Shown: one piece after another, positions 27,367 to 63,440 of the stretch
Numbering within the stretch: position 1 is the stretch's first letter
Layout: the number at the start of each line of letters is the position of its first letter
Source: Bacteroidetes bacterium HGW-Bacteroidetes-5
Lineage (GTDB): Bacteria; Bacteroidota; Bacteroidia; Bacteroidales; UBA932
Direction of reading: 5' to 3'
Length of the DNA: 64,000 nucleotides
NCBI GenBank assembly: GCA_002842515.1
Contig: PHDC01000001.1
Span: forward strand, 744,001-808,000
Program-made: the position numbers and the translations under genes
The notes under the pieces: model-generated
Database searches by the model: none
What the model was told of the DNA's origin: nothing
The model's input: the letters and a program-made list of their open reading frames with translations, nothing else

Positions 27367-29013
27367 ATGAAACGAAAATCTCTTTTAATCTCTCTATTGG
27401 GCATATTGCTCATATACTCCGCTTCTCTATTCTCACAAAACAGTTTAAATTCACAAAACACCCCTCTCACAGAGCAGGAGAGTAAAAAGGTTGTAGACAA
27501 AATCATTGAACTTGGCACCAAAGAGAACCAAACAATGCACCATCTGGATATCCTTACAAACAGGATTGGCGGAAGGCTCATTGGTTCTGATGCTTACGAA
27601 AATGCCACCTACTGGGCAGCAGGTCTGTTCAGGAAATGGGGGCTCGAGGTTCAGGTGATTGAGGTTGGTGAGCTGCCTGTGGGTTTCAATAGAGGCCCCT
27701 GGTTTGGAAAGATGCTCTCACCGGATGGAATGACTCTCCATTTTGCAACCCCCTCCTACACATCCGGCACAAAAGGTGTTCAAAGGGGTCACGTGGTTAT
27801 GGAGCCTAAAAGCAGAGCAGATTTCGAGAGGATGAAGGGAAAACTCAAAGGGGCGTGGGTACTCATATCGGGAGAGAGTGACGGGTTTCCGGTTGACATT
27901 TCTGAATATGCAGATACTCTCCGCTCAATTATAATTAAAGAGAACGACAAAATTGGCAGATACAACGACTCTGTAACCCGAGTGAACAGAGCCAATCCGG
28001 ACAAACCAAAAGTTGCCCTCAAAGAGTACAAAGACTCCCCTGCCCTCTTTTACAAAGAGATGAGAGATGCAGGAATCCTGGGAATAATCCAATCCTCCAC
28101 AGTTCCGATAAGAGCACTCTACGACAGAAAGAACTTAAAGTATATGGATTTTGAAAATCTCCCTACCTGCCCAGACATTAAACTGAATGAGCATCAGTAT
28201 CGCATTATTGCTCAAAAGGTTAAAGAGAGAGAGTACTTTTTGTTAGAGTTTGATATTCGCAACCACTTTAAACCCGGGCCTGTAAAATACCATAATGTGA
28301 TTGGCATTATTCGCGGAACAGAGTTTCCGGACGAGTATGTTATGTCCGGAGGCCATCTGGATGCATTTGATGTAGCCACGGGAGGTGTAGATTGCGGTAC
28401 CGGAGTTGCTCCAAACCTGGAGGCTGCCCGTTTAATTATGGCAGCCGGCGGGAAACCCAGGAGGTCTATCGCGTTTTGCCTTTGGGCCGGGGAGGAGTTT
28501 GGCCTTTTAGGATCCAAACACTGGGTAGAGAGCAATATCTCTAATCTGAACAAAATCTCAAACTACTTTAACAGAGACGGCGGACCGACTATTGCCAACT
28601 CAATTACAGTTCCGGCGGCTATGTATGAAGATTTTAAAAAAGCCACTGAAGATCTCAACAGAATTAACCCCGAATTTCCGTTTAAACTCAACCTCAGGAG
28701 CGGCGAGGCAAGGCCCAAACCAACTACAGCGGGAGGTTCCGACCACGCATATTTTGCAATAAACGGAGTACCTACAATAAGTTTTGGCACGGCAGACCCT
28801 AAGGGATATGACTTTAATTATCAAGAGATTTGGCACACAGAGAGAGATACATACAATATGAGTATCCCCGAATATATGGACCACACATCTGCAGTAATGG
28901 CAATAGTCTATTACAATCTTGCCAATACGGACAAGTTACTCTCCAGAGAGGATCTTTACAAGGAGGAGCAGCCTGCTCCAAAAACAGAGACTAAGCGAAG
29001 AAAGCGACAATAA
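27367..29013 (+). CDS. Exported M28-family zinc aminopeptidase
   Basis: A 548-residue exported protein with a signal peptide in residues 1-23. A PA-like domain is inserted in the middle (FNRGPWFGKML region onwards). The M28 metal ligands appear in SGGHLDAFDVATGG (His, Asp), CLWAGEEFGLLGS (Glu-Glu) and GGSDHAYF (His). M28 enzymes remove N-terminal amino acids from peptides. The C-terminus is basic (TKRRKRQ). No gene follows in the same operon: the next 218 bases hold the promoter and attenuator of the lysine operon. Confidence 0.93.
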   Translation: MKRKSLLISLLGILLIYSASLFSQNSLNSQNTPLTEQESKKVVDKIIELGTKENQTMHHLDILTNRIGGRLIGSDAYENATYWAAGLFRKWGLEVQVIEVGELPVGFNRGPWFGKMLSPDGMTLHFATPSYTSGTKGVQRGHVVMEPKSRADFERMKGKLKGAWVLISGESDGFPVDISEYADTLRSIIIKENDKIGRYNDSVTRVNRANPDKPKVALKEYKDSPALFYKEMRDAGILGIIQSSTVPIRALYDRKNLKYMDFENLPTCPDIKLNEHQYRIIAQKVKEREYFLLEFDIRNHFKPGPVKYHNVIGIIRGTEFPDEYVMSGGHLDAFDVATGGVDCGTGVAPNLEAARLIMAAGGKPRRSIAFCLWAGEEFGLLGSKHWVESNISNLNKISNYFNRDGGPTIANSITVPAAMYEDFKKATEDLNRINPEFPFKLNLRSGEARPKPTTAGGSDHAYFAINGVPTISFGTADPKGYDFNYQEIWHTERDTYNMSIPEYMDHTSAVMAIVYYNLANTDKLLSREDLYKEEQPAPKTETKRRKRQ

Positions 29014-29025
29014 TTTTTAATTTTA

Positions 29026-29056
29026 TTTGGAGAAAAAGATATTTCTACTACATTTG
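29026..29056 (+). promoter_or_regulatory. Consensus Bacteroidota promoter of the lysine operon
   Basis: The -33 element TTTG (29026-29029) and -7 element TACATTTG (29049-29056) are separated by 19 bases, an exact match to the primary-sigma consensus of this phylum (TTTG-N19-21-TAnnTTTG). Transcription would start near 29063, about 23 bases before the leader ORF. Confidence 0.8.
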
Positions 29057-29085
29057 CACACAGTTTAGTAAAAAACTACAAAACA

Positions 29086-29148
29086 ATGAACAGCACATAC
29101 TGCACAAAATCTATAAAACCAGCCGGTAAGAAACCACATCTGCGATGA
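29086..29148 (+). CDS. Leader peptide with four lysine codons
   Basis: A 20-codon ORF (starting MNSTYCTKS, ending KKPHLR) lies between the promoter and the terminator hairpin of the lysine biosynthesis operon. Lysine codons are at 29107, 29116, 29128 and 29131, so 4 of 20 residues. The first part of the ORF (29101-29111) forms one arm of a hairpin with 29152-29162. This is the layout of a ribosome-controlled attenuator: a ribosome slowed at lysine codons would cover that arm. It has no Shine-Dalgarno sequence, which is normal here. Translation has not been shown, and a 20-codon ORF can occur by chance. Confidence 0.55.
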   Translation: MNSTYCTKSIKPAGKKPHLR

Positions 29149-29202
29149 GGGGATTTTGTGTATTAATAATAGGCACGAATCTCCGATTCGTGCTTTTTTT
29201 TT
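29101..29202 (+). promoter_or_regulatory. Candidate transcription attenuator of the lysine operon
   Basis: Three segments can pair in two exclusive ways. TGCACAAAATC (29101-29111, inside the leader ORF) pairs with GATTTTGTGTA (29152-29162). If that pairing is blocked, GATTT-GTG from the second segment can pair with CACGAATC (29174-29181) with one bulged T. CACGAATC is also the 5' arm of the terminator. So free RNA favours the terminator, and a ribosome held on the leader lysine codons favours an antiterminator. This is the logic of the trp and his attenuators. The pairing was worked out by eye, not by a folding program. Confidence 0.55.
29173..29202 (+). terminator. Intrinsic terminator ahead of the lysine operon
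   Basis: A perfect 9-bp stem GCACGAATC/GATTCGTGC with a 3-nt loop is followed by nine T. It lies 30 bases before the first structural gene and downstream of the consensus promoter at 29026, so it would stop that promoter's transcripts unless relieved. It could also end transcripts of the upstream M28 gene. Confidence 0.9.
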
Positions 29203-29231
29203 GTTGAAAAAATAACCGAAAATTAAATACT

Positions 29232-30230
29232 ATGAACACCGAAGAACTTGTACAAATTATGAAAATCGACTCCACCTCGGGCAAAGAGGTTGAGTTGGCA
29301 AACTACATTGCCCGAACATTTAAAACCCCCGGGTCTACACTCGAGATTCAGGAGGTGGGAGACGGAAGCGTAAATCTCTTCTTCAAATGGGGCACTCCAA
29401 AGATTGTATTTTGTACACACCTGGACACTGTTCCTCCATATATTGAGCCCTGGGCAGATAACGGAAAAGTTTTTGGCAGAGGTGCGTGTGATGCCAAAGG
29501 TCAGATTATTGCTGCCTATAACGCCTGTAAAGAACTTGAAAGTGAGGGTGAAACAGACTTCGGTCTGCTTCTTGTTGCCGGAGAGGAGATTGGTTCTAAA
29601 GGGGCTAAGGTTGCAAATAACCTTATAAAAGATTGCCAGTATGTTATAGTGGGAGAGCCTACCGAAAATAAACTCATTCGGGCAGGGAAGGGCATTCAGC
29701 TGTATGAAGTTAGTATTAAAGGCATTAGCGCACACTCGGGATACCCCCAATTTGGCGACGATGCCATTGAGAGGATGAGAGTATTTCTAAACAAGCTCTC
29801 AGAGGTGAAATTCCCTGTAGACAATCTTCTGGGCACAACCACATACAACATTGGTATGCTAGCCTCAAACAACGCACATAATGTTCTGCCAAACCTGGTA
29901 ACATTCAGAATATATTTCAGAACCACCTTCTCTTCACATCTGCTCATAGAGAACAGGCTCAAAGGTATCTCCGATGATAAGATTTCGGTTACAAAAATCC
30001 GCGAAGATAAGCCGTTTAGATTCCACTATATTGATGGTTATCACAGCGATATCGTTGCATTTGCCAGCGACGGCCCCTGCCTTGCCAATCTCGGAAAATG
30101 CCTTCTTTACGGACCCGGGAGCATAAAGGTTGCACACACAGATAAAGAGTTTATAGACTTTGCAGATATTGAGAGAGCTGTGACTGACCTAAAAAACATT
30201 TTCAAAACATTAACTCAGGAGATAGCGTAG
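29232..30230 (+). CDS. dapE: M20-family deacylase, probable succinyl-diaminopimelate desuccinylase
   Basis: A 332-residue soluble zinc peptidase of the M20 family. Metal ligands are in FCTHLDTVPPY, GRGACDAKGQI and AGEEIGSKGA. The dimerisation domain is in the middle (SAHSGYPQFGDDAIERM). It sits first in the operon with lysC, dapB, dapA, dapD and an aminotransferase, and the stop is directly followed by the lysC start. Since dapD makes a succinylated intermediate, a desuccinylase (DapE role) is the missing step and this enzyme is the clear candidate. M20 enzymes also include acetylornithine deacetylase (ArgE), so the symbol rests on the operon. Confidence 0.82.
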   Translation: MNTEELVQIMKIDSTSGKEVELANYIARTFKTPGSTLEIQEVGDGSVNLFFKWGTPKIVFCTHLDTVPPYIEPWADNGKVFGRGACDAKGQIIAAYNACKELESEGETDFGLLLVAGEEIGSKGAKVANNLIKDCQYVIVGEPTENKLIRAGKGIQLYEVSIKGISAHSGYPQFGDDAIERMRVFLNKLSEVKFPVDNLLGTTTYNIGMLASNNAHNVLPNLVTFRIYFRTTFSSHLLIENRLKGISDDKISVTKIREDKPFRFHYIDGYHSDIVAFASDGPCLANLGKCLLYGPGSIKVAHTDKEFIDFADIERAVTDLKNIFKTLTQEIA

Positions 30231-31586
30231 ATGATAGTGATGAAATTCGGAGGGACCTCTGTGCAGGACTCCGCCGCGATTGAGAGATTGATAGAGATTG
30301 TACAAAGAAAAATTGAGCTACGCCCTGTTATTGTAGTATCTGCCCTATCCAAAGTGACCGATTCCCTTCAAAATATAGCGAACCTATCATTTAGAGGAGA
30401 TCTTAAATCTGCTCTGGCCCTTACAGAGAGCCTGCAAAAGAGGCATATAGAGATGACATCAGAGTTATTAAGCCAGAACCAGGCCTATCTGGCAAAGAGC
30501 CTCTCTCAGATAGATGACTATTTCGTTAAACTAAGAGAGATTGTAGGGGTGGTAAATATTCTGGAAGAGCTCTCAAACAAGAGTATGGCAAAAATTCTCT
30601 CCTTCGGGGAGCTTCTCTCTTCATATATAATCTACCGTGCTCTAAATAACTCCGGCGTTAAGTGCGCAATTGCAGATGCCAGAGGCTTCATTATAACCGA
30701 CGATGAGTTTCTCAAAGGGGAACCAGACTATAACTCCATCCGGGAGCTTACTCCAAAGGCACTAAATAGTGCACTGGAGGGAAACGATGTTGTGATTACC
30801 CAGGGATTTATCTCCGGAACAAAGGATGGACTCAACACCGTTTTGGGTAGAGGCGGATCTGACTACACTGCCGCCCTAATCGGGATGGCAATGGGTGCCA
30901 CCGAGATTGAGATCTGGACAGATGTAGATGGAGTTCATACGACAGATCCCAGAAGGGTGGGAAACACCAGAAGCATCTCTACAATGTCGTTTAGCGAAGC
31001 AGCAGAGCTCTCATTCTTCGGGGCAAAAGTACTTCACCCTGCAACCATACAACCTGCAATAGAAAAGAGCATCCCCGTAAGAGTGCTCAACTCAACTGAG
31101 CCCCAAAACAGAGGAACCCTCATCCTAAGAGACGACAAGATTACAAGCAGCGGAGTGAGAGCTATCTCCTTCAAAGAGAACATAATAGTAATCAACATCT
31201 TCTCTATGAAGATGCTAAACACATTTGGATTTCTTACCAAACTTTTTGAGGTTTTCGGTAAATATGGGGTTTCGGTAGATCTTATCAGCACCTCGGAGGT
31301 GAGCGTGTCGTTAACGGTAGATAACGACCACAACCTGGATAAACTGACACAGGAGATCTCCGGTTTTGCAAATGTTACAGTTAAATACGACAAATCCCAG
31401 GTCTCCGTTGTGGGTAAAAACCTCAAAGAGACCAAAGGGCTGGCAAAGAGAATTTTCGGGGCAATCTGCGAACACAACATAACAATGATAAGCCAGGGTG
31501 CCTCCGATATTAATGTAAGTTTTGTAGTAAACAAAGAGGATCTGGATTGTGTAATAACAGCTCTTCACAAAGAATTTTTTGAATAA
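30231..31586 (+). CDS. lysC: Aspartate kinase
   Basis: A 451-residue monofunctional aspartokinase. The nucleotide-binding start is VMKFGGTSV, the catalytic block is TVLGRGGSDYTAALIG and ATEIEIWTDVDGVHTTDPR. Residues 300-451 form the tandem ACT domains that usually bind lysine or threonine for feedback inhibition. It catalyses the first step from aspartate to lysine, methionine and threonine. It begins one base after the M20 gene ends, and its stop overlaps the dapB start (TAATG). Being in this operon suggests that it is the lysine-dedicated isoenzyme. Confidence 0.96.
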   Translation: MIVMKFGGTSVQDSAAIERLIEIVQRKIELRPVIVVSALSKVTDSLQNIANLSFRGDLKSALALTESLQKRHIEMTSELLSQNQAYLAKSLSQIDDYFVKLREIVGVVNILEELSNKSMAKILSFGELLSSYIIYRALNNSGVKCAIADARGFIITDDEFLKGEPDYNSIRELTPKALNSALEGNDVVITQGFISGTKDGLNTVLGRGGSDYTAALIGMAMGATEIEIWTDVDGVHTTDPRRVGNTRSISTMSFSEAAELSFFGAKVLHPATIQPAIEKSIPVRVLNSTEPQNRGTLILRDDKITSSGVRAISFKENIIVINIFSMKMLNTFGFLTKLFEVFGKYGVSVDLISTSEVSVSLTVDNDHNLDKLTQEISGFANVTVKYDKSQVSVVGKNLKETKGLAKRIFGAICEHNITMISQGASDINVSFVVNKEDLDCVITALHKEFFE

Positions 31587-32287
31587 TGAATATAGTACTA
31601 TCTGGATACGGAAAGATGGGTCAGGAGATTGACTCTGTTTTAAAGGGAACGACTCATAATGTTGTTGCCAGATCCCAGGATATACAGGGCATAGATAAGA
31701 GACTGGCAGAGGAGAGCGTATGTATAGATTTTTCGGAACCGGCGGCATTCCGTAAGAACTACAGGTTTATTGCAGAGAATTTTAAAGCAGCAGTTGTTGG
31801 AACAACCGGCTGGAACGATATAAAAGATGAGGTTACAGCCTGTTTTAGAGAGTGCGGGACCACTATGATATATGCCAGCAACTTCTCAATTGGGGTGAGT
31901 ATACTCTTTAAGTTGTGCGAGATAGCATCAAAGCTGTGCAACTCAATGGGAGAGTACGACCCGTATATTCTGGAGATGCACCACAAGTTCAAACTGGATG
32001 CACCATCGGGCACTGCCAAGACCATAAAGGAGATTGTATCCAAAGAGTACGGGCGCGATGTGGCCATAGAGAGTATCAGGAGCGGATATATTCCCGGAAT
32101 ACACCGCCTGGCATTTGAATCTGTACAGGATAGAGTTGTTCTCGAACACGAAGCTTTCTCAAGAGGCGGGTTTGCACTTGGAGCAGTCACTGCCGCCGGG
32201 TGGGCTACACAGCTCAAGGGAGTGTTTGACTTCCGTGATATAATTGAAGATAAATTTATTACAATATTAAACAATGAAAGAGATTAG
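31586..32287 (+). CDS. dapB: 4-hydroxy-tetrahydrodipicolinate reductase
   Basis: A 233-residue enzyme with the nucleotide-binding GYGKMGQEI at the N-terminus, the segment VVGTTGW and the conserved substrate-binding block MHHKFKLDAPSGTAKT. It reduces the product of DapA with NAD(P)H. It is slightly shorter than the E. coli enzyme (273), as is usual in Bacteroidota. The start overlaps the lysC stop, and its last 14 bases overlap the dapA gene, so it is translationally coupled on both sides. Confidence 0.96.
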   Translation: MNIVLSGYGKMGQEIDSVLKGTTHNVVARSQDIQGIDKRLAEESVCIDFSEPAAFRKNYRFIAENFKAAVVGTTGWNDIKDEVTACFRECGTTMIYASNFSIGVSILFKLCEIASKLCNSMGEYDPYILEMHHKFKLDAPSGTAKTIKEIVSKEYGRDVAIESIRSGYIPGIHRLAFESVQDRVVLEHEAFSRGGFALGAVTAAGWATQLKGVFDFRDIIEDKFITILNNERD

Positions 32288-33155
32288 CGGGTGCGGTACG
32301 GCACTTATAACGCCATTCACCTCAACATTTGAGGTTGACTACCCGGCTTTTAGGGTACTGGTTCAAAGACAATTAGATGCAGGCATCAACTTTCTGGTGC
32401 CGTTGGGAACAACAGGCGAGACCCCCTGTCTGGAAGATTACGAAAAGCACAAGATACTTGAGATAACACAGGATGTGAACAACGGTAAGGTAGCTGTGGT
32501 AGCAGGTGTGGGCTCCAACTACACAAAAAAAGTTATTGAGAACATTAAGAGCTTCTCAAAATTTAATGCAGATGCCTTTCTAGTTGTGGTACCATACTAC
32601 AACAAACCAACCCAGCAGGGGATATTCGAGCACTTCCGCGCAGTATCTGAATCTACCTCCACTCCAATTATACTCTACAATGTGCCCGGCAGGACCGGCA
32701 CAAATATGAGCAGTGAGACCACCCTCAGGTTGGCAGAGTTAAAAAACATTGTGGCTGTAAAAGAGGCATCCGGAATATACTCCCAAATAAGCGAGATCAT
32801 AAAATTCTCCCCAAAGGGCTTCTCGGTCCTCAGTGGAAATGACGATGAGACCCTCCCTCTAATGAGCACCGGGGCAAAAGGGATCATAAGTGTAGCCTCA
32901 AATATTGCTCCGAAACATATGGTTCAACTTGCACAGAGCCTCAAAGAGAGAGACACAGAGAGAGCACAGGCATTGCACCATAAACTTATGCCACTATTTA
33001 AAGCCTGTTTCGTTGAGAGTAACCCAATCCCCACTAAAGCGGCACTTAGCCTGATGAAATTAACAGAGAATGTTTTAAGACTACCTTTGGTTAGCTCTTC
33101 TTCAAAAACTGACCAACTGATGAGTGAGGTATTAAAAGAGCTTAAACTACTGTAA
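32274..33155 (+). CDS. dapA: 4-hydroxy-tetrahydrodipicolinate synthase
   Basis: A 293-residue class I aldolase with TIM barrel. Landmarks are GTALITPFTSTFEVDY, PLGTTGETPCL, the tyrosine in VVPYYNKPTQQG, the substrate-binding YNVPGRTGTNM and the Schiff-base lysine in VAVKEASGI. It condenses pyruvate with aspartate semialdehyde, the first step dedicated to lysine. The gene overlaps dapB by 14 bases and the stop overlaps the dapD start by one base. Confidence 0.97.
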   Translation: MKEISGCGTALITPFTSTFEVDYPAFRVLVQRQLDAGINFLVPLGTTGETPCLEDYEKHKILEITQDVNNGKVAVVAGVGSNYTKKVIENIKSFSKFNADAFLVVVPYYNKPTQQGIFEHFRAVSESTSTPIILYNVPGRTGTNMSSETTLRLAELKNIVAVKEASGIYSQISEIIKFSPKGFSVLSGNDDETLPLMSTGAKGIISVASNIAPKHMVQLAQSLKERDTERAQALHHKLMPLFKACFVESNPIPTKAALSLMKLTENVLRLPLVSSSSKTDQLMSEVLKELKLL

Positions 33156-33979
33156 TGATGACAAATTTAGAGAGAGAGTTCAATCACATATCGCTCAACA
33201 ACAACAGTGAAGAGGCATTAGCCCTCTTTTACAAAGTAAGGGATCTCCTGGAGAGCGGGGAGCTTAGGGTGGCCCAAATTAGACATAGCAACTGGAGTAT
33301 CAACTCCTGGGTTAAACAGGTTATTTTGTGGGGGTTTCGTTACGGTAAAATTAGAGAGTACCAGGGCAGCCCGCTCTCCTATTACGACAAAGATACATAC
33401 CCTGCCCAATCCTTTAGGGCAGATCAAAATATCCGGCTTGTACCCGGCGGCTCATCGGTACGCAGTGGAGCATATGTTGCAGATGGAACTGTTATTATGC
33501 CACCCTCATATATCAATGTTGGAGCCTATATAGACTCCGGCTGTATGATAGACTCCCACGCACTTGTGGGCTCCTGTGCCCAGATTGGAAAGGGGGTTCA
33601 TATATCTGCAGCTTCGCAGATAGGGGGAGTGCTGGAGCCCATAAATGCAATGCCTGTGATTATTGAAGATGATGTCTTTGTGGGAGGAAACTGCGGAATA
33701 TACGAAGGGACAATTGTGAAAAAGGGGGCAGTAATTGCTACCGGAGTTATCTTAAATGCATCTACACCCATCTTTGACAACACCACCGGAAAGTATATCC
33801 GCAAAAGCGACACAACCCCTTTGACAATTCCCGAAAACGCAGTTGTAGTTGCCGGCAGCCGCCCCATAAGCAGCGGTTTTGGCAGAGAGTTCTCAATTCA
33901 CCTCTACTGTCCGGTGATAATCAAATACAGGGATAGCAAGACAGATAACGCAATAGAGTTGGAAGATCTACTGAGATGA
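33155..33979 (+). CDS. dapD: Tetrahydrodipicolinate N-succinyltransferase
   Basis: A 274-residue enzyme. The N-terminal helical part (GELRVAQ to SWVKQVILWGFR) is followed by a left-handed beta-helix of hexapeptide repeats (IMPPSYINVGAYIDSGCMID, then SHALVGSCAQIGKGVHIS). The DapD-specific WVKQ region and IVEDDVFVGGN-type loop (IIEDDVFVGGNCGIYEG) are present. It succinylates tetrahydrodipicolinate using succinyl-CoA and so opens the acylated branch of lysine synthesis. Its presence shows that this organism uses the succinylase route rather than, or besides, the DapL route known from Bacteroides. The last 4 bases overlap the aminotransferase gene. Confidence 0.95.
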   Translation: MMTNLEREFNHISLNNNSEEALALFYKVRDLLESGELRVAQIRHSNWSINSWVKQVILWGFRYGKIREYQGSPLSYYDKDTYPAQSFRADQNIRLVPGGSSVRSGAYVADGTVIMPPSYINVGAYIDSGCMIDSHALVGSCAQIGKGVHISAASQIGGVLEPINAMPVIIEDDVFVGGNCGIYEGTIVKKGAVIATGVILNASTPIFDNTTGKYIRKSDTTPLTIPENAVVVAGSRPISSGFGREFSIHLYCPVIIKYRDSKTDNAIELEDLLR

Positions 33980-35184
33980 GTAAAATAGATTTAGAGTCAA
34001 TACTATCCGAAAATGCCTCAAAAATGAGACCCTCTCCTGCCAGAAACATTCTTGCCGGGCTAAACAGAGAGGAGCTTATCTCGTTCGGGGGCGGCTACCC
34101 CAACCCGGAGACATTTCCGGTTGATGACCTTAAGAGGATTGTAGAGACCCTGTTGCGGGAGAGCCCCTCAAGCTCTCTGCAGTACGGCCCTACCGAGGGA
34201 GACCCCAAACTTCGCCGGGAGCTTGCCAACAGGTACCGCTCCCAAGGAGTAGATATCACCAAAGATGATATTGTAATCACTACATCTTCTCAACAGGCCA
34301 TTGACCTCTGCTCCAAGATATTTCTAAACAGAGAAGATACTCTTGTGTGCAGCCTCCCCACCTATTTTGGAGCTCTTCAATCTTTTTGGTTTTGGGGCGG
34401 GGCTCCGGTTGGAGTTGCAGATGAAAACAATTTGGAGTCTACTGTTATAAAGCTCATTGAAGAGGGTCGCAAGCCAAAATTCATCTACTCAATCCCCGAT
34501 TTCCAGAACCCCTCGGGAGTAACACTCTCATTAGCCCAGAGAGAGAACATCATAAGAGTTGCCCGGCTTTACGATTTAACCATTATTGAAGATAGCCCAT
34601 ACAGAGAGCTCAGGTATAGCGGAGAGGAGCTGCCAACCCTATTATCTATGGACAAAGAGCGGGTCATACTTTTAGGAACTTTCTCCAAGACACTCACCCC
34701 CGGGTTTAGGCTTGGCTGGATTGTTGCCAACCCCCAAATTCTGGACAAAATAGTTGTTGCAAAACAGAGCGCAGACCTCTGTGCGTCGGTCTTTGACCAA
34801 GCTATTGCGGCGCGCTACCTGGGTGATGGACTCTTTGATAGTAATCTTATTAAGACAATTGAGCTCTACCGAGGGAAAAGAGAGTTGATGCTGGAGTGTT
34901 TCAAGAGGTATATGCCCAAGAGTGTGAGCTGGACCGTTCCCGAAGGGGGGCTCTTTCTCTTTTTAACACTTCCATTTGGTTATAAAAGTGCAGATGTTCT
35001 CAAGCTGACACTTATTGAGAACTTAGCCTTTATCCCGGGAGAGATTTTTTTCTGTAACGGTGAGGGTAAGAACACAATGAGAATCAACTTCTCCTATGCC
35101 CCAAACGAAAAGATTGAAAAAGGGGTTAAAATTCTTGCCACAGCAATTGAGAGTGTTATCTCAACTACGCCAGATTACCGCTAA
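33976..35184 (+). CDS. Class I aminotransferase in the lysine operon, candidate DapC role
   Basis: A 402-residue PLP enzyme of fold type I. Landmarks are QYGPTEGDPKLRRELANRY, the PLP-binding Asn/Asp/Tyr region (IPDFQNPSG and IIEDSPY) and the PLP lysine in GTFSKTLTPGFRLGWI. It resembles the LysN/2-aminoadipate and MocR-type branch and not ArgD/DapC of E. coli. It overlaps dapD by 4 bases and is last in the lysine operon, where the only pathway step without an assigned gene is the N-succinyl-diaminopimelate aminotransferase. That role is therefore likely but inferred. An aromatic or aminoadipate aminotransferase is the alternative. Confidence 0.85.
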   Translation: MSKIDLESILSENASKMRPSPARNILAGLNREELISFGGGYPNPETFPVDDLKRIVETLLRESPSSSLQYGPTEGDPKLRRELANRYRSQGVDITKDDIVITTSSQQAIDLCSKIFLNREDTLVCSLPTYFGALQSFWFWGGAPVGVADENNLESTVIKLIEEGRKPKFIYSIPDFQNPSGVTLSLAQRENIIRVARLYDLTIIEDSPYRELRYSGEELPTLLSMDKERVILLGTFSKTLTPGFRLGWIVANPQILDKIVVAKQSADLCASVFDQAIAARYLGDGLFDSNLIKTIELYRGKRELMLECFKRYMPKSVSWTVPEGGLFLFLTLPFGYKSADVLKLTLIENLAFIPGEIFFCNGEGKNTMRINFSYAPNEKIEKGVKILATAIESVISTTPDYR

Positions 35185-63381: not shown

Positions 63382-63417
63382 AAGGGAAAAGCCGAAAACC
63401 CTTCAAAAAGAGTAGGC
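63382..63417 (+). ncRNA. Candidate cis-acting H-type pseudoknot RNA, copy B
   Basis: Stem P1 is AAGGG (63382-63386) with CCCTT (63399-63403). The 12-nt loop AAAAGCCGAAAA is identical to copy A at 9848. GCC in the loop can pair with GGC at 63415-63417, and the 3' tail AAAAGAGTAGGCAA is also identical. Compared with copy A, four of the five P1 pairs are changed on both sides and still pair. It lies 23 bases before the start of the SUMF1-like gene. Confidence 0.6.
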
Positions 63418-63440
63418 AAGGTTCAATAAATTTTATAATA

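Follow-up and report, generated by a model that had tools for sequence, protein, structure and literature searches.

A putative leader-peptide attenuator preceding the lysine biosynthesis operon in a Bacteroidales family

Results

Organization of the lysine operon and its leader region

In the window (the entire 64,000-nucleotide stretch analyzed here, from the genome designated G000), a leader region with the elements of a transcription attenuator lies between an M28 peptidase gene and an operon for lysine biosynthesis (Table 1). The operon predicted downstream by the initial annotation is real, and comprises the genes for a deacylase, LysC, DapB, DapA, DapD, and an aminotransferase. The deacylase scores below the profile cut-offs set for named enzymes; judging from the operon context, which suggests its substrate, this protein probably fills the DapE step. 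Similarly, the class I/II aminotransferase, assigned from the same context, probably performs the DapC step. The lysine-sensitive type of aspartate kinase encoded by lysC was detected in 4 of the 393 genomes of the order at E 1e-90, all of them within the family. The lysA gene is located apart from the operon, at C1:273721-274821, and its own upstream region contains no ORF with a terminator. The M28 peptidase gene also adjoins the operon in three relatives (G016, G008, and G009).

Table 1. Positions of the leader elements and the neighboring genes in the window
Feature	Positions	Strand	Description
M28 peptidase gene	27367-29013	+	directly upstream of the leader
Promoter, Bacteroidota type	29026-29056	+	TTTG-N19-TACATTTG (TTTG 29026-29029, TACATTTG 29049-29056)
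Leader ORF	29086-29148	+	MNSTYCTKSIKPAGKKPHLR*; ATG 29086-29088, TGA 29146-29148; 20 codons; Lys codons 8, 11, 15, 16
Segment 1	29101-29112	+	pairs with segment 2 at 29151-29162 when free (12 bp); in the minimum-energy fold
Lys-Lys codon pair AAG AAA	29128-29133	+	proposed control codons (masked folding)
Segment 2, antiterminator 5′ strand	29149-29161	+	immediately past the stop codon (duplex folding)
Segment 3, antiterminator 3′ strand	29173-29184	+	overlaps the terminator 5′ arm and loop
Intrinsic terminator	29173-29202	+	perfect 9-bp stem 29173-29181 x 29185-29193, loop TCC, nine T 29194-29202
ArgE/DapE-like M20 deacylase, operon head	29232-30230	+	profile score below the cut-offs of named enzymes
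lysC, aspartate kinase, lysine-sensitive type	30231-31586	+	NF006570, 471.2 bits (cut-off 455)
dapB	31586-32287	+	
dapA	32274-33155	+	
dapD	33155-33979	+	
Class I/II aminotransferase	33976-35184	+	role from operon context

The promoter, the 20-codon ORF with four Lys codons, and the 9-bp terminator were placed by the initial annotation correctly at the base level. The assignment of TTTG-N19-TACATTTG as a promoter follows the Bacteroidota consensus. The motif TTTG-N19-TAnnTTTG has no other exact match on either strand of the window. Shuffled windows contained 0.41 matches on average, and the match is weak when taken alone, because a third of the shuffled windows (33 of 100) carry at least one such motif. 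The same motif with the same spacing precedes the corresponding leaders of G016 and G076, while the leader of G004 has TTTG-N18-TAATTTCG. In G033, only the -7 part is present, and in G017, the -7 motif has TTTT replacing TTTG, with the start codon 5 nt past it. By thresholds that we set ourselves, the two strands of the window contain 18 strong terminators, and a short ATG ORF precedes eight of them. In this group of eight, a TAnnTTTG motif upstream of the ORF occurs solely at the terminator 29173-29202.

Alternative base pairings in the leader RNA

The initial annotation proposed that the stretch 29152-29160 can pair with either of two partners, and both duplexes are indeed present in the sequence. 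This stretch, GATTTTGTG, matches the reverse complement of 29103-29111 at every position. Duplex folding extends both pairings beyond the lengths first described, to 12 bp each. The pairing of segments 1 and 2 (29101-29112 x 29151-29162; -15.0 kcal/mol) has a p value of 0.0445 against shuffled sequences, and that of segments 2 and 3 (29149-29161 x 29173-29184; one bulge, -14.5 kcal/mol), which forms the antiterminator, has a p value of 0.0095.

Recurrence of the leader in related genomes

In order to locate homologous operons, we searched 199 genomes of the family with the operon head, and 26 of them matched at E 1e-50. An intact Lys-containing leader ORF, together with a terminator and an antiterminator, precedes 6 of these 26 operon heads. 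Four of the intact leaders belong to the window's genus (G000, G016, G017, and G004), and two belong to a second genus (G033 and G076), which has two genomes in the collection, both with the leader. The leader peptides are MNSTYCTKSIKPAGKKPHLR, MNRTICTKSIKQASKKPHLR, MNTISVNNNQFKNSSKKP, MNKSIKKYLFSSKKPKL, MMNSMAMMSKKSYKRGKQVSNLLRDSLV, and MALKSKHNPKQNKRKNCLPWNFIA, and an intrinsic terminator with a T-run is present in all six leaders. The loci were picked by the homology of the operon head; the leader ORFs were first chosen by eye, and therefore with some choice of reading frame, and were later recovered by our leader detector. Three named near relatives are metagenome-assembled genomes, and one of them, HGW-Bacteroidetes-8 (PHCZ01000001.1), is placed by NCBI to the phylum only. 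According to the longest-ORF call, the upstream neighbor is the M28 peptidase gene on the same strand in G000 and G016, a different same-strand gene in G004, and an opposite-strand gene in G017, G033, and G076.

Two further relatives have only part of the region or none of it. G008 (L005) keeps the terminator half and lacks 51 nt corresponding to 29049-29099 of the window, so that neither the -7 motif nor the start codon remains; this gap is either a real loss or an assembly error in a fragmented genome. In G009 (L004), a close relative, the entire regulatory region is absent and the operon head begins 5 nt past the M28 peptidase stop codon, which suggests the loss of control. The other 18 of the 26 operon heads, in three other genera, are preceded by no Lys leader. 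The ORF-plus-terminator matches among these 18 were a Lys-free ORF in G098, and those in G186 and G205. We rejected the latter two, in which a 32-residue ORF with a few Lys residues lies before a terminator: the open frame extends a further 418 and 420 codons, respectively, upstream of the ATG, and the ORF is therefore the end of the upstream gene.

How well are the two pairings preserved in these relatives? Against dinucleotide shuffles of the segment-2 region, the antiterminator duplex has p values of 0.0095 in G000, 0.0195 in G016, 0.014 in G017, 0.004 in G004, and 0.0225 in G076, while that in G033 is not significant by itself (p 0.099). The combined p value, calculated with G016 left out, is 1.1e-5. 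Segment 2 starts at or directly past the stop codon in G000, G016, and G004, and 11 nt from the first base of the stop codon in G017. In the second genus (G033 and G076), it starts 17-19 nt before the stop codon, within the ORF. Segments 1 and 2 pair strongly in G000 and G016 (p about 0.04), and the sequence of the truncated G008 also contains this pairing. In G017, it is partial, with a 7-bp exact stretch (p 0.19), and it is not significant against shuffles in G004 (0.67), G033 (0.47), and G076 (0.15). Thus, of the two pairings expected to be kept in relatives, the antiterminator recurs in all six leaders, whereas the protector pairing, limited to the closest relatives and one analogue, is a local addition. 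The more general device is probably the ribosome at the stop codon itself, covering segment 2. In G017, a ribosome at the stop codon barely covers this segment.

We also built a covariance model, R1, from five leaders of the window's genus. Under the stricter filters, R1 matched 13 of 239 family genomes, and five of these matches are its own source leaders. The eight weaker matches (E 0.0009-0.033) looked like ordinary terminators and were set aside. Four weak matches (L159, L160, L162, and L166) precede one conserved gene, presumably that of a tryptophanase-type lyase. The R1 search gave no match in the leaders of the second genus (L008 and L039).

Folding of the leader with a held ribosome

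The effect of a ribosome on the leader RNA was modeled by keeping unpaired all of the nucleotides up to 12 past the A-site codon. In G000, the probability of the terminator is 1.00 in the free RNA, and becomes 0.71 with the ribosome at K8, 0.90 at K11, 0.23 at G14, 0.01 at K15, and 0.03 at K16. It then rises again, to 0.77 one codon further on and to 1.00 at the stop codon. The minimum thus coincides with the Lys-Lys codon pair, and a ribosome at the earlier Lys codons, K8 and K11, has little effect. When the front edge of the ribosome is placed at +9 or +15, the low zone is displaced by a single codon, and one or both codons of the pair remain within it. The terminator probability is also lowered in G017 (0.00, 0.04, and 0.11 at K12, K16, and K17; 1.00 at the next codon) and in G076 (0.00, 0.27, and 0.20 at K10, K13, and K15; 0.96 at the next codon). 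In both cases the low zone includes non-Lys codons (N7 to K17 in G017, H7 to K15 in G076), and Lys coincides with its right-hand edge.

The window leader therefore switches in masked folding as the initial annotation had predicted, and the equilibrium drop is found in three of the six leaders. The other three (G016, G004, and G033) show no equilibrium switch, with terminator probabilities of 0.94-1.00 for a ribosome at any codon, so that either the co-transcriptional order is needed or the model is too crude. In the nascent RNA of these three leaders, in which the 3′ arm of the terminator is not yet made, the probability of the antiterminator is 0.97-1.00 at the Lys codons. With the ribosome at the stop codon, it is 0.10 in G016, 0.53 in G004, and 0.26 in G033, as compared to 1.00 in G017. 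The nascent antiterminator is close to 1.00 at most codons, Lys or not, and it is also high without a ribosome (0.98 in G033, 0.71 in G017, and 0.57 in G004), so this measure indicates permission rather than Lys specificity.

Finally, the ribosome was held at the late Lys codon and the stretch from it to the terminator was shuffled 400 times for each leader. An equally strong nascent antiterminator was obtained in 0 (G000), 6 (G016), 2 (G017), 5 (G004), 47 (G033), and 4 (G076) of the 400 shuffles. An equally low terminator probability was obtained in 0, 14, 41, 23, 41, and 10 shuffles, in the same order, and only G000 thus stands out strongly on the latter measure.

Lysine codons in the leader ORFs

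Lys codons in the leaders of relatives had been proposed as a check of the initial annotation, and Lys-containing ORFs are found in all six intact leaders, from two genera. In a pooled test over five leaders, with G016 left out as near-identical, Lys accounts for 22 of 102 residues, as compared to a shuffle mean of 12.9 (z 4.44, p 0.0003). Lys is the most enriched residue, followed by Ser (z 2.17), Met (1.83), and Asn (1.74). Taken singly, the p values for Lys enrichment are 0.031 in G000, 0.020 in G004, and 0.024 in G076, while the enrichment is not significant in G016 (0.40), G017 (0.56), or G033 (0.055); in the G017 leader, Asn outnumbers Lys. G000 and G016 share the four Lys residues; codon 15 differs synonymously (AAG in G000, AAA in G016), and the ORF has no indel.

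Searches for RNA families and further leaders

At the gathering score, the only Rfam match in the entire window is a DUF805b RNA element (63382-63418, +, 48.5 bits). The 15 Rfam matches up to E 10 within 28950-29300 include no T-box and no lysine riboswitch (L-box, RF00168). The leader weakly matches Thr_leader RF00506 (22.7 bits, E 0.039), which has the same layout and is the closest functional kind among the weak Rfam matches. However, this score is far below the gathering score of 55, the ORF contains four Lys codons as against two Thr codons, and the genes downstream are for lysine.

The leader detector recovers all six known leaders. Among the matches listed, it found no terminator-linked ORF with Lys as the top residue in 44 upstream regions of single-domain aspartate kinase genes (40 chosen from that list, plus 4 from 30 listed loci). 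The same was true of the regions upstream of 29 of the 30 dapA loci listed, with the window's own copy left out; one of the 29 had only 208 nt upstream, and the dapA search matched 141 of 148 genomes. One region, in G605, has an ORF with 4 Lys in 25 residues, where Arg is more common. This survey is keyed on aspartate kinase and dapA, and would miss operons with other first genes.

Moreover, Thr-rich leader ORFs with terminators precede thrA in four genomes of the window's genus (G006, G010, G017, and G004; L055, L056, L073, and L075), for example MTIQHTTSIIMGSTSMSTITTTALYD. These ORFs have 18-27 codons, and the terminators end 34-36 nt before the matched gene. They differ from the window leader of the same lineage in their Thr codons and in the thrA gene downstream, and are likely to be threonine attenuators in Bacteroidales. 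The lineage thus seems to use leader-peptide attenuation. In other Bacteroidota, Thr-rich leader ORFs with terminators also lie before aspartate kinase genes, in G672 (L095; MISTIKNMTTTTTMHLPFRLPGK) and G710 (L096; MTQTTTITTTTLTTPRVRALSCV).

Discussion

What does the leader do? Most probably, it is a transcription attenuator that works through the ribosome and senses how much charged lysine tRNA is available. This reading, put forward by the initial annotation, is supported by the real lysine operon, the six recurrent leaders, and the masked folding of the window leader; translation of the ORF, stalling at its Lys codons, and the response to lysine are inferred. Other explanations must be weighed against it. 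The hairpin might be an ordinary intrinsic terminator, with the ORF as a chance frame. It would then belong either to the M28 peptidase gene, whose end at 29013 lies about 160 nt upstream, or to a short leader RNA. Short ORFs also stand ahead of 7 more of the window's 18 strong terminators, and A-rich DNA readily yields Lys codons, with 1.8-3.4 expected per leader in the shuffles. Nevertheless, a promoter motif lies between the peptidase gene and the hairpin, and the same operon is preceded by this unit in genomes with differing genes upstream, three of which lie on the opposite strand. Since, in addition, the antiterminator exceeds the shuffles and the pooled Lys content exceeds the dinucleotide shuffles, we consider an ordinary terminator quite unlikely.

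The leader could also be a ribosome-mediated attenuator that responds to a general slowing of translation or to another residue, through pausing at Lys-Lys-Pro or at Ser or Asn codons. The KKP motif common to the four intact leaders of the window's genus, the Ser and Asn contents above the shuffles, and the permissive zones that extend past the Lys codons fit such a signal. It is nonetheless very unlikely, since both leaders of the second genus lack KKP yet keep their Lys codons, Lys is enriched above every other residue, and the controlled genes make lysine. The least plausible explanation, which we regard as highly improbable, is a metabolite-binding riboswitch for lysine (an L-box or a new class) with an incidental ORF. 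In other bacteria, lysine genes are under L-box riboswitches, according to the available text of PMC1262725. However, no L-box was found at the gathering score in the window, nor up to E 10 within 28950-29300, and R1 has no match in the second genus, even though the layout of ORF and terminator is kept there.

How would a lysine attenuator work at this locus? RNA polymerase would start just past 29056, at a start site deduced from the promoter motif, and a ribosome would initiate the translation of the 20-codon leader. When lysine is plentiful, the ribosome would reach the stop codon and cover segment 2; alternatively, it would leave, and segment 1 would capture segment 2. With segment 2 occupied in either way, segment 3 would fold into the terminator and the operon would be off. 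Under a shortage of Lys-tRNA, the ribosome would wait at the Lys-Lys codon pair, where it would cover segment 1 and halt just before segment 2. Segment 2 would then pair with segment 3, the terminator would not form, and lysC-dapB-dapA-dapD and their partners would be transcribed.

Such an arrangement shares its main parts with the trp-, his-, and thr-type attenuators, namely a short ORF with codons for the product, an alternative antiterminator with an intrinsic terminator, and an amino acid operon downstream. It differs from the attenuators of Escherichia coli and Salmonella in the amino acid, lysine, in the phylum, and in the position of segment 2, at or behind the stop codon or inside the ORF. 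The available part of one survey lists leader-peptide attenuators for the trp, his, thr, leu, ilv, and phe operons (PMC1183508). The corresponding part of another gives candidate leaders for trp, leu, ilv, and cys in Actinobacteria, and names L-box riboswitches for lysine (PMC1262725). To the extent that their available text covers the subject, these surveys thus name few amino acids, and lysine is absent from them and ascribed to riboswitches (PMC1183508, PMC1262725). The L-box and the window leader would both control lysine genes at the RNA level, but the L-box senses lysine by its aptamer.

Two other systems resemble the window leader in part, as described in the available excerpts of the respective papers. 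The SEP5 sORF of Sinorhizobium meliloti, which contains six Thr and three Lys codons, has been proposed to encode a leader peptide upstream of an aspartate-pathway gene; unlike the window leader, its codons are mixed Thr and Lys, it precedes a single aspartate dehydrogenase gene, and it belongs to an alphaproteobacterium (PMC10117765). In the Salmonella speF leader, two identical basic-residue codons, paired in ORF34, sense arginine, and replacing the pair with Lys codons abolished the arginine regulation; in contrast to the window leader, it responds to arginine, precedes a polyamine gene, and also involves mRNA decay (PMC6386406). In Bacteroidota, the transcriptome of Flavobacterium psychrophilum provided strong clues that leader peptides attenuate amino acid operons, as stated in the available part of PMC9723704. 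Only such clues are reported for the phylum in the accessible text of PMC9723704 and PMC7366714. We found no lysine leader peptide or attenuator in the open-licence literature searched, a scope that falls short of a proof of absence.

The attenuator mechanism is already known for other amino acids, and the lysine version would be what is new. On balance, we favor the view that this is the first lysine-sensing leader-peptide attenuator, in which charged Lys-tRNA controls the pathway to lysine and cell-wall diaminopimelate in a Bacteroidales family. The same logic would have two designs, with segment 2 past the stop codon in one genus and within the ORF in the other. If true, the lysine version would add an amino acid to the list of attenuators. 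Moreover, because the operon also supplies diaminopimelate, such control would tie the supply of a cell wall precursor to tRNA charging.
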